In this document: piece by piece, positions 46,295-49,307 of the stretch
How the letters are laid out: each line of letters starts with the position of its first letter
Position numbering within the stretch: the stretch's first letter is position 1
NCBI RefSeq assembly: GCF_025717605.1
Contig: NZ_JAJIRQ010000009.1
Span: forward strand, 62,001 to 126,000
Source of the DNA: Paucibacter sp. TC2R-5
GTDB lineage: Bacteria; Pseudomonadota; Gammaproteobacteria; Burkholderiales; Burkholderiaceae_C
Length of the DNA: 64,000 nucleotides
Direction of reading: 5' to 3'
The notes under the pieces: generated by a model
What the model saw: only the letters and a program-made list of their open reading frames with translations
Database searches by the model: none
What the model was told of the DNA's origin: nothing
Made by a program: the position numbers and the translations under genes

Positions 46295-46486
46295 TCATTT
46301 CTGGGAATCGCTGCGCCACTGCGTCGCCGTCTGGCGCATCAACATCAGCTGTTTGCCGAAGTTGTTGCAGCCCGTGCAAAACAAGCAATGGGCTCGAATG
46401 ACGAGGCGCGCACCCGCGCCGAGTCGGCGGTCTTCGCCGGCCAAGGTCATCCGGGTGATGTCTTTGCAATTTGGCATCAGTTTCAC
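46295..46486 (-). CDS. small zf-HC2 (ZAS-type) anti-sigma-like protein
   Basis: A 63-residue soluble protein. LMPNCKDITRMTLAGEDRRL is followed by the zinc motif H-x3-C-x2-C (HCLFCTGC), which defines ZAS anti-sigma domains. It has no membrane segment. The GTG at 46486 is chosen because AAGGAG lies 9 bases upstream; the frame is open to an ATG at 46552 that would overlap the promoter. It diverges from the bufferin-type operon and no ECF sigma gene adjoins it. An anti-sigma role is inferred from the motif and the matched promoters. Confidence 0.72.
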   Translation of the reverse strand: MKLMPNCKDITRMTLAGEDRRLGAGARLVIRAHCLFCTGCNNFGKQLMLMRQTATQWRSDSQK

Positions 46487-46533
46487 GCCTGTTTTCTCCT
46501 TGATTGATCCACCAAGCTTGCGCGCAAGGGCTT

Positions 46534-46560
46534 GGTCGCGCCGCGCGTCCATTCCTTACA
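46534..46560 (-). promoter_or_regulatory. ECF-type promoter toward the zf-HC2 gene
   Basis: Read on the (-) strand: TGTAAGG (46560-46554), 15-bp spacer, CGACC (46538-46534). It lies about 48 bp before the GTG. The -35 half is within an 11-bp inverted repeat shared with the opposite promoter. Confidence 0.6.
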
Positions 46561-46604
46561 GCGCATGAAGGCTTGGCCGATTTGCAAAGTTTTTTGCGGA
46601 CCGC

Positions 46605-46632
46605 TGTAAGGATTCAAGCTTTGCTTGCGACC
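46605..46632 (+). promoter_or_regulatory. ECF-type promoter toward the bufferin-type operon
   Basis: TGTAAGG (46605-46611), 16-bp spacer, CGACC (46628-46632). It is the mirror image of the zf-HC2 promoter, with 11 identical bases around the -35 (CGCTGTAAGGA at 46602-46612 versus the complement at 46553-46563). One ECF sigma factor probably reads both. Confidence 0.6.
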
Positions 46633-46727
46633 CATGGGTGTCAACGGCATGATGCCTTGGCCTGAGACCCTGAAGTCGGGGTCTGCAAGCGTCTTTAGTT
46701 TTTTCGTTTCTTCCATTGGAGTCATTC

Positions 46728-47006
46728 ATGAAATCAAGCTATCTCGTTTCTTCCGCCGTCGCCGCTGCTTTGGCCATGGGGCTGGTGGGTCAAGTCGCTG
46801 CGCAGGACAAGGGCGCCAAGGAGAAGTGCTTCGGCATCGCGAAGGCGGGCGAGAACGACTGCGCCAACCTCAGCGGCACGCATTCGTGTGCGGGTCAGTC
46901 CAAGGTCGACAAGGGCGTCGATGAATGGAAATTCGTCCCCAAGGGCAGTTGCAAAAGCATGGCCGGCATGACGGCCGAAGAAGCCAAAGCCAAGATGAAA
47001 AGCTAA
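46728..47006 (+). CDS. bufA: DUF2282 bufferin-type RiPP precursor
   Basis: A 92-residue secreted small protein. A Sec signal peptide (about 1-25, MKSSYLVSSAVAAALAMGLVGQVAA) is followed by a mature part with four cysteines (C34, C45, C54, C75) in family-typical contexts: KCFGIAKAGENDCA, THSCAGQSK and VPKGSCKSM. In bufferins these cysteines are modified by the DUF692 enzyme and the product binds copper. The ATG at 46728 has a GGAG site 7 bases upstream. It heads the bufA-bufB-bufC-DoxX operon under an ECF-type promoter. Confidence 0.87.
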   Translation: MKSSYLVSSAVAAALAMGLVGQVAAQDKGAKEKCFGIAKAGENDCANLSGTHSCAGQSKVDKGVDEWKFVPKGSCKSMAGMTAEEAKAKMKS

Positions 47007-47056
47007 GTCTTGAATTGAACTGACAAGCCAGGCCGAGCGTGGAGAGGGCACAGCGT

Positions 47057-47950
47057 ATGAATTCGGAGCCGCAGTTCTCAATGTCGCAAGTCGGCATTGG
47101 TTGGCGCCAGCCTCATTACGAATCGTTGCTCAAGCGCGCGCCTGCGCTTGGCTTTTTGGAAGTGCATTCGGAGAATTTCTTTGCGCCGGGCGGCGCCGCA
47201 TTGGCAGTGCTGATGGCGGGCCGAGTGCAATATCCGATCAGCTTGCACGGCGTTGGTTTGGCCTTGGGCTCGGCTTGCGGGCTTGATGCCTGGCATCTTG
47301 AGCGCTTGGCAGATTTGGTGGACCGAGTCGATCCGGTGCGGGTCTCGGATCACGCGAGTTTTGCGCGCGTACCGGGGCAGGGCGGGCGCGCGAGCTTGCA
47401 CGCCAGTGATTTGTTGCCGATTGAATTCAATCAAAACAGCCTCGATGTGATGGTGAGCCATGTGCAGCAGGTGCAAGAGCGCCTGCGTCGGCCCATTTTG
47501 GTGGAAAACCTCAGTGCTTATCTGGGCTGGGATGACGCGGGTAGTGAAGGCCTGAGCGAAGTGGATTTTTTCAATCTGCTGACGCAGCGCAGTGGTTGCG
47601 GCTTGTTGCTCGACGTGAACAATCTGGTGGTCAATGCGCGCAACCAAGGCGCAAACAAGGCCGAGGCTGTGACACAGGCGCAGGCTTGGATTGACGCCAT
47701 TCGCTTGGGCAGCGTCGGTGAGATCCATTTGGCGGGCCATGCCGAATTGCCCGGCATCGTCATTGATGACCATGGCAGCCGGGTCAGCGCCGAGGTGTGG
47801 CAGGTTTTCTCTCATGCGATAGAGCGCTTGGGGCCGCTACCGAGTTTGATCGAGTGGGATACCGATGTGCCGGCGCTGGACGTCTTGCTAGGCGAGGCCG
47901 AGTTGGCCCGGCGAGCAATGGCCGAATGCTCTGGGCCGGTGACCGTATGA
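47057..47950 (+). CDS. bufB: DUF692 multinuclear iron oxidase (MNIO), BufB/MbnB-like
   Basis: A 297-residue TIM-barrel-type enzyme. Metal-ligand motifs are spread as expected: [63 protein letters not shown] and [12 protein letters not shown] enzymes use an iron cluster and oxygen to modify precursor cysteines, as in methanobactin and bufferin. The ATG at 47057 follows GGAGAGG; a GTG at 47039 is the alternative. It overlaps bufC by ATGA, consistent with an enzyme-partner pair. Confidence 0.92.
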
Positions 47951-48735
47951 CGGCGGCTTTGGCCAAGCGTCAGCAGGCTTTGCTGGCAGCCCTGCTGGGT
48001 CGCTCCGGCGGCGAGGGCAGTGGCTTGGTCGGTCTGCCCGGCGTGCGGAACATGCCGAGCGGATCGGCGCTGGAGCGCGGCTTGTTGGCCTATCGCCTGA
48101 ACGCCCAGGCGATGGCAGCGAAAGCGCTTGGCACGGTATTCGCACGCACCCAGACCGCCCTGGGTGATGAGGCATCCTTTGCCGCCATGGCTTGGGCTTT
48201 TTGGCGCCGCTTCCCACCAGAGCGAGGTGACTTGGGGCTGTGGGGAGGCAGCTTGGCGGAGTTTTTGGCGGAGCAAGACGGTATGCCTGTGTGGCTCTGC
48301 GATTTGGCGCGCATCGAGTGGGCGGCACATTGCTGCGAGCGCGCTGCCGACAGCGAGCTTGATGTGCCGTCGCTGGCCCTGTTGAGTGAACTGGAGCCGC
48401 AGCAGCTTCACCTGCGCTTCAGACCCGGCGTGCAATTGCTACGGGTGGAATCCAAAGCCTGGGAACAATGGTGCGATCAGATTCCGGATACAGCCGCGCA
48501 GGGCGAGGCTATTGGCCTGGTGATGGCTCGCAAGGCCTGGGTGTCGCAAGTGCATGCCGTGCAGCCCGGAGATTGGGCGCTGATGAGCAGGCTGTTGGAA
48601 GGGGCTGATCTGGATCAGGCGCTGCAGCAGGCGTTCGCGATGCAGGCAGAGTTTGATTTCTCGGCTTGGCTGCAGGCAGCCCTGCTCAAGGGCTGGCTCT
48701 GGGGCTTAGAGGCTGGCGAGAGTCAGCCTAAGTAA
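47947..48735 (+). CDS. bufC: DUF2063 partner protein (BufC/MbnC-like)
   Basis: A 262-residue protein of the DUF2063 family. It starts [18 protein letters not shown] and contains [31 protein letters not shown] and [15 protein letters not shown]2063 proteins present the precursor peptide to the DUF692 enzyme. The start codon overlaps the bufB stop by ATGA; the longer in-frame extension inside bufB is not family-like. Confidence 0.88.
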
Positions 48736-48806
48736 ATCACTATTTTGTTTGACCGAAGCGGCGGCGCGTCGTTTCGCAAACCATTTGAATCATAAGGACC
48801 TATGAC

Positions 48807-49307
48807 ATGAAGGCATTCTTTAGCCTGCTTTTGCTTGCTCTTTGCCACCCGGGCCAGAGCTGCAGCTTCGAGACCGGCTTGCCTCAGCCTTTTCGCCACG
48901 TCTTGGCCCACGCGCAAGCCCTGGCCTTGTTGATGGCGCGACTCTTTGTCGCCAAGGCCTTCTTTCTCTCCGGCCTGACGAAAATTCAGGACTGGTCGAC
49001 GACGCTGGCACTTTTCGAAACCGAGTACATGACGCCGCTGCTGCCGCCCGAAGTGGCTGCATGGATGGGTACCGGCGGCGAGTTGCTGTTGCCGGTCTTG
49101 TTGGTCCTGGGCTTGGGCGGGCGCTTTGCCGCTGTCGGGCTCTCGGTCGTCAACGTGATGGCAGTTTTGAGCCTGAGCGATATCGCACCGGCTGCGCTGG
49201 CCGGTCATCAGTTGTGGGGCGCGCTGCTGCTGGCGGTCGCTTTATGGGGCGCGGGTCGTTGGTCTTTGGATGCGCTGCTGCAGCGAAAATTTGGAACTTG
49301 TCCGTGA
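48807..49307 (+). CDS. DoxX-family membrane protein of the bufferin-type operon
   Basis: A 166-residue protein with about four membrane helices. It has the DoxX pattern LLMARLFVAKAFFLSGLTKIQDW...LFETEYMTPLLPPEVAAWMGTGGELLLPVLLVLGL. DoxX proteins regularly close DUF2282-DUF692-DUF2063 operons and may serve redox or export steps; the precise role is not known. AAGGA lies upstream of the ATG. The next gene, tolA, converges on it with 17 bp between the stops. Confidence 0.85.
   Translation: MKAFFSLLLLALCHPGQSCSFETGLPQPFRHVLAHAQALALLMARLFVAKAFFLSGLTKIQDWSTTLALFETEYMTPLLPPEVAAWMGTGGELLLPVLLVLGLGGRFAAVGLSVVNVMAVLSLSDIAPAALAGHQLWGALLLAVALWGAGRWSLDALLQRKFGTCP

Follow-up and report, generated by a model that had tools for sequence, protein, structure and literature searches.

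Why does a gene for a zinc-associated anti-sigma (ZAS) factor, with no sigma factor gene beside it, stand divergent from an operon for a bufferin-type copper peptide, and what could control the two? The locus lies in a 64,000-nucleotide stretch of Paucibacter sp. TC2R-5 (contig NZ_JAJIRQ010000009.1, positions 62,001 to 126,000; hereafter the window), where each of the two transcription units is preceded by its own promoter-like site. We consider it likely that one extracytoplasmic function (ECF) sigma factor, the one encoded on contig C12 of the same genome (G000), would target both the operon and the ZAS gene in a negative feedback from a nested sigma-dependent promoter to the anti-sigma factor, and that the window represents the state after the sigma gene left. 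The present study covers gene orders, conservation of the motif, codon choice beyond what protein and codon usage demand, retention of the site where the ECF gene is gone, and its absence from ECF genes displaced from the operon.

An orphan anti-sigma gene beside a pair of promoter-like sites

The features that raise the question are the following.

46295..46486, minus strand: orphan ZAS anti-sigma gene, 63 amino acids, GTG start (NF052368, 58.6 bits)
46535..46538, minus strand: -10-like CGAC towards the ZAS gene, with an N15 gap to the -35 (pattern scan)
46554..46560, minus strand: -35-like TGTAAGG towards the ZAS gene, retained in 4/4 genomes whose operon has an orphan ZAS beside it
46605..46611, plus strand: -35-like TGTAAGG towards the bufferin operon (pattern scan)
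46628..46631, plus strand: -10-like CGAC towards the bufferin operon, with an N16 gap to the -35 (pattern scan)

The sequence-only reading had described two back-to-back TGTAAGG-N15/16-CGAC sites, one facing the operon and one the zf-HC2 (ZAS) gene, and the pattern scan bears this out. TGTAAGG-N14..17-CGAC occurs twice in the window, from 46560 to 46535 on the minus strand (N15) and from 46605 to 46631 on the plus strand (N16), with a gap of 44 bp; the expectation is 0.06, and none of 100 shuffles reached two or more copies. The genome-wide scan that the same reading had suggested did return copies, but no rarity: across 5.13 Mb, TGTAAGG-N15/16-CGAC occurs three times versus four for the reversed control pattern. 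Therefore, rarity in the whole genome cannot mark the sites, and the argument is one of place and conservation. The third copy, TGTAAGG-N16-CGAC (L003:1501-1527; C41:355498-355524 of G000, minus strand), sits between a lipB-like and a SEL1-repeat-like gene (named by eye), ahead of the latter, and is also present in G004 (L177), within an intergenic stretch alike throughout. We do not claim this copy (C41:355498) as a sigma target, since in G004 the stretch is alike over its whole length and the copies listed for other congeners may lie at other places.

The ZAS protein passes the NCBIfam model NF052368 (antisigmaE) with 58.6 bits against a cut-off of 50, as scored on the longer open reading frame (ORF) 46295-46552; Pfam gives no match at E≤0.01, and a comparison with solved structures none at E≤5. 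Position 46552 was ruled out as its start because the -10 (46535-46538) would fall within that ORF, and the GTG at 46486, with AAGGAG ahead of it, yields the 63-residue protein. The zinc-ligand pattern (Hx3Cx2C plus an N-terminal Cys) comprises Cys4, His30, Cys34 and Cys37, numbered from MPNC.

A candidate sigma factor is encoded at C12:310706-311257, in a gene followed by a ZAS gene of its own. The protein passes TIGR02943 (236 bits, cut-off 162.2) and NF009173 (294.6 bits, cut-off 255) and is the sole match of the source genome to the ECF family alignment at E≤1e-30; among solved structures it matches only general ECF factors. At least five ECF-type genes are present in the genome according to Pfam searches with the frames of nine loci read, four of the five having been scored against NCBIfam and the fifth, L017, judged from its frame. 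On these family assignments, the C12 ECF is the likely sigma for both window sites. The earlier suggestion that an ECF factor encoded elsewhere drives both sites thus gains a good candidate, but one that has its own ZAS partner instead of lacking an anti-sigma. That makes the window ZAS a duplicate, a second anti-sigma in addition to the paired one, and not the sole inhibitor.

Gene arrangements in relatives show where this copy may have come from. Of 59 genomes searched, 38 hold DUF2282 and 33 an NF052368 protein. In eleven, the fetched neighbourhoods place a ZAS gene and an ECF gene of the C12 kind together, divergent from the bufferin operon: 7/18 genomes of the same genus (G003, G006, G007, G009, G010, G012, G015) and, elsewhere in the family, G018, G023, G024 and G029. 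In the source genome and in G001, G004 and G005, the ZAS gene stands alone at the operon and an ECF-ZAS pair is located elsewhere. The remaining 7/18 genus genomes match neither arrangement in what was found; for instance, G008 has the operon without an adjoining ZAS, and G002 has neither operon nor ZAS. In 3/4 genomes (L169, L142, L143) a cytochrome b561 gene stands divergent from the displaced pair, whereas the neighbourhood in G005 (L144) gave no b561 match. In the tree, the displaced ECFs make up a clade (100/99) nested in the operon-linked ECF clade (99/100; midpoint root), which contains the genus's operon-linked ECFs together with G024 and G014. Orphan and displaced-pair ZAS proteins likewise cluster (94/93), in a group whose internal order the tree does not settle. 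Judged from these gene orders, the window arrangement is derived, since relatives keep ZAS and ECF divergent from the operon. An anti-sigma gene without its sigma, controlling its own promoter and a metallophore operon, had been called unusual: the site is indeed of the operon type, but the gene is a second copy in a derived arrangement.

The promoter-like motif within ECF coding sequence

In ECF-bearing genomes the ZAS-facing site lies within the ECF gene, in codons reading TGT AAG ... NCG AC, which we take to encode region 4.2. A scan of the 500 nt before DUF2282 had suggested a trait of orphan loci only, an idea dropped when the site was found inside ECF genes. A score matrix missed the internal site in L109, L113 and L118, where plain patterns revealed it.

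The first set comprises 16 non-displaced ECFs and omits six of greater distance (G008, two; G011, G041, G054 and G055, one each), five of which are readable at the site, none with the full motif. All members of the set but G018 and G028 have the full motif (14/16), and TGT encodes the site Cys in 15/16 genes, as against 3/46 for the Cys codons elsewhere in these genes. G028, the only one with TGC, is also without a DUF2282 match. In all four displaced ECFs the Cys codon is TGC and the Lys and Thr codons are altered as well, with a change of the two residues.

For a wider set, peptide patterns that leave the site uncovered brought up 507 related stretches, of which the best 80 were kept. Leaving out L286 (site not located) gives 79 named loci, which overlap the genome set (e.g., L227 is G012 and L237 is G005); without L270, whose anchor is missing, and without the displaced L230, L237 and L239, 75 ECF genes are left. 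The full in-frame motif occurs in 60/75 of these, whereas reverse translation under the codon usage of these genes predicts 3.1. TGT encodes the site Cys in 64/75 (27/202 for other Cys codons), and in 25/31 versus 10/79 when the set is thinned to 31 genes with less than 65% third-base identity. The -10 codon ends in G in 73/75 genes, compared with a third-base G in 910/2814 elsewhere, and does so across four amino acids.

Among the 79 loci, a census of TGTAAG-N16/17-CGAC placed 61 copies in the ECF gene, 53 facing DUF2282, none facing the ECF start and 13 elsewhere, the last against a background of 1.84 Mb with both strands counted. In 61/79 loci the motif thus lies in the sigma coding region and points towards the anti-sigma gene, the layout of the PrshA promoter discussed below. 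In the source genome the sigma coding region is absent from the ZAS-facing site; the operon-facing site is present in both arrangements. ECF autoregulation was rejected, with 0 sites facing the ECF start in the named loci and none scoring >9 in the four displaced loci.

DUF2282 is present in 62/79 named loci, and the motif lies upstream of it in 51 of these 62 (36 with the longer gap, 15 with the shorter). The internal motif is found in 54/62 loci with DUF2282 and in 7/17 without; the 17 include three displaced copies. A search with the family alignment yielded 30 extra loci, 14 of them outside the named set, with the motif in 11/14; six of the 14 are first-set genomes, and the remaining eight all have it (8/8). 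Among 13 ECFs outside the family, nine are readable at the site and TGTAAG occurs in 0/9. A link between the internal motif and the presence of a ZAS (0/4 vs 61/75, Fisher 0.002) was considered and dropped, a ZAS gene lying behind all four ECFs concerned.

Could these codons be fixed by the needs of translation, of mRNA structure or of the protein, the motif being no promoter in the ECF gene and co-opted as one after ECF loss in the window lineage? We regard this as rather unlikely. The Cys, Lys and Thr at the motif are indeed widely conserved in the protein, and other codon columns are strongly biased too: when the 184 columns are ranked by codon bias, the two motif positions come second and fourth, and the columns in first and third place lie outside the motif. 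The protein, however, needs neither TGT nor the third-base G of the -10 codon, the same elements face DUF2282, and displaced ECFs that still code drop exactly the internal-motif codons, in 4/4 cases.

The four genomes without the ECF gene at the operon all retain TGTAAGGAA, the N15 gap and CGAC, while most of the spacer differs. Compared with ECF-internal spacers, that of G005 agrees at 12/15 bases, those of the window and G001 at 10 each and that of G004 at 5; for random 15-mers the best match has a mean of 6.3, with 95% and 99.9% points of 9 and 11. ECF ancestry of the spacer thus appears clear in G005, suggestive in the window and G001, and positional only in G004. A solitary ZAS gene of another genus (G019; L150:4183-4455, minus strand) also has TGTAAG-N16-CGAC upstream, with no ECF of the C12 kind in the fetched stretch and a stop codon in the would-be ECF frame; it is a possible second orphaning event. 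In the four orphan genomes and G019, the bases are thus kept outside any sigma coding sequence, as promoter function predicts.

Alternatively, TGTAAGG-N-CGAC might be an operator for another regulator, or be read by a different sigma of the genome. At least four other ECF-type genes are available for that role, recognition by the C12 ECF being putative. Set against this are the two blocks at N15-N17 spacing, their orientation towards genes, and the link of the site to the C12-type ECF family in 11 relatives and in the named ECF loci with DUF2282, which together make the alternative improbable. That the orphan ZAS has lost its function and is decaying, as its greater divergence might hint (48-62% identity among orphan versus 69-80% among paired ZAS), is very improbable, with frame and zinc ligands intact in 4/4, a proportion of nonsynonymous differences (pN, 0.22-0.28) far below that of synonymous ones (pS, 0.56-0.73; synonymous divergence, dS, saturated), and the promoter-like site retained in 4/4.

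The bufferin-type operon and its proposed control

The operon that would share the sigma factor consists of four genes.

46728..47006, plus strand: DUF2282 bufferin-type precursor, 92 amino acids, four Cys (PF10048, 85.7 bits, cut-off 22.4)
47057..47950, plus strand: DUF692 (MNIO) enzyme (PF05114, 288.3 bits, cut-off 25)
47947..48735, plus strand: DUF2063 partner protein (PF09836, 40.8 bits, cut-off 27.2)
48807..49307, plus strand: DoxX protein (PF07681, 58.2 bits, cut-off 23.6)

All four Pfam matches exceed their cut-offs and the precursor has Cys at positions 34, 45, 54 and 75, in agreement with the operon as first described; its signal peptide was judged by eye alone. The order from DUF2282 through MNIO and DUF2063 to DoxX is that of bufferin-1 clusters. 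The DUF692 enzyme scores 291 bits with the NCBIfam BufB maturase model, its top model, without reaching the cut-off of 310, and we therefore call the cluster bufferin-type rather than bufferin; the DoxX protein reaches 49.7 bits with the HvfX model (cut-off 80). A possible stem-loop, GTCAACGGCATGATGCCTTGGC (window 46640-46661), begins 8 bases past the operon -10. GTCG occurs at the corresponding place in many loci, and the mean folding z over 57/58 loci is -0.89 for bases 2-42 after CGAC versus +0.45 for 42-82, a weak average signal. A further DUF2282 gene of the source genome (L121:4822-5151; C41:447953-448102 of G000) lies in a fetched stretch that runs to the contig end and gave no match to DUF692, DUF2063 or DoxX.

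The circuit that we infer from these observations, in promoter activity, recognition by the C12 ECF, order of events, signal and peptide function, would run as follows. In operon-linked relatives, the region 4.2 codons of the ECF gene would carry a promoter of the sigma's own type, aimed at the downstream ZAS gene. Active sigma would then raise the anti-sigma and not the sigma, a negative feedback; with no site of this kind directed at the ECF start, the sigma would not amplify itself. In the source lineage the ECF-ZAS pair may have been duplicated or moved and the operon-side ECF copy lost, leaving the internal promoter and the ZAS gene, after which the displaced ECF would have lost its internal site. 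The two ZAS copies would divide the roles, the paired one being co-encoded with sigma and the orphan sigma-induced. ZAS would hold the ECF until copper, by analogy with other bufferin operons, or another stress disables its zinc-thiol centre; freed sigma would transcribe the bufferin operon and the ZAS gene, and fresh ZAS would refill the pool and close the response.

Several points weigh against this proposal. The third genomic copy and the four control matches mean that the pattern also occurs by chance; among loci with DUF2282, 8/62 are without the full internal motif and 11/62 without an operon site in the scanned stretch; ECF ancestry of the spacer is clear in a single genome; and the counts are not independent because the genomes are related. 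Furthermore, oxidative stimuli left meningococcal sigma-E expression unaltered despite the same ZAS ligands (PMC2893595), and since this system did not respond to the oxidants tried, a simple thiol signal is weakened. In Cupriavidus, rpoQ deletion raised, rather than abolished, gig expression (PMC10304878).

We nevertheless lean towards extending the nested-promoter circuit to the whole of one betaproteobacterial family. The DNA for the sigma's -35-reading helix-turn-helix would at the same time be that sigma's promoter onto its anti-sigma, an overlap that would fix codons and might also fix the residues Lys and Thr. The window would then be a natural deletion experiment in which the coding duty is lost, the promoter duty is kept and two anti-sigma copies split into a co-encoded and a feedback form. 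For a copper-peptide operon this would supply both a probable sigma factor and a logic of regulation, and it would offer a DNA stretch that serves as protein code and promoter at once, two duties separated by evolution in some species. If the proposal is true, synonymous changes in the sigma gene should shift the anti-sigma level.

Comparison with known systems

Most of the NMB214x genes of Neisseria meningitidis, apart from those named below, are presumably the bufferin set. The meningococcal sigma-E/MseR locus (NMB2140-2145) pairs an ECF with a small ZAS whose ligands, Cys4/His30/Cys34/Cys37, are at positions equal to those of the window protein (PMC2893595), and a DoxX-family gene lies in the sigma-E operon (PMC2893595, PMC3240639). 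It differs in being a single autoregulated operon with positive feedback and in its promoter (-35 GTMAGBWTT, -10 CGTCTAAH), and the consulted portions of these two reports describe no orphan anti-sigma for sigma-E.

The Caulobacter sigma-F regulon includes an ECF-controlled DUF2282-DUF692-DUF2063-DoxX operon with the promoter GTAACC-N16-CGAA (PMC3511200), and so resembles our ECF-linked operon of the same four families, for which control is inferred. In contrast, its anti-sigma is a DUF1109 protein with 6 predicted transmembrane segments, and the sigF promoter is itself sigma-F dependent (PMC3511200). In Cupriavidus metallidurans the copper-induced gigPABT is divergent from rpoQ-rsqA, encoding an ECF and a putative anti-sigma and read by the housekeeping sigma (PMC10304878). 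There, RsqA is predicted to be membrane-bound and RpoQ control of gig is unproven, and no mention of an internal promoter in rpoQ-rsqA was found in the part of that report consulted. Bufferin clusters containing sigma and NrsF genes have also been described (PMC12452194).

The closest likeness is to Corynebacterium glutamicum, in which the SigH-dependent PrshA inside sigH drives rshA alone and sigH itself is transcribed from housekeeping promoters (PMC3489674). As there, an anti-sigma promoter, here a putative one, is nested in the sigma coding region. The C. glutamicum system differs in its actinobacterial SigH, its promoter sequence and regulon, and the sigma and anti-sigma genes that are still adjacent; the consulted portion of the report holds no statement on codon-level conservation in sigH (PMC3489674). 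Open-licence literature listings returned no report of an anti-sigma promoter inside an ECF gene of the TIGR02943-type family. Given this precedent the type of circuit is already known. The new elements would be an overlap, at the level of codons, between the promoter and the DNA-reading helix of the sigma, the family-wide conservation of that overlap, and a natural loss of the sigma gene with the promoter left in place.

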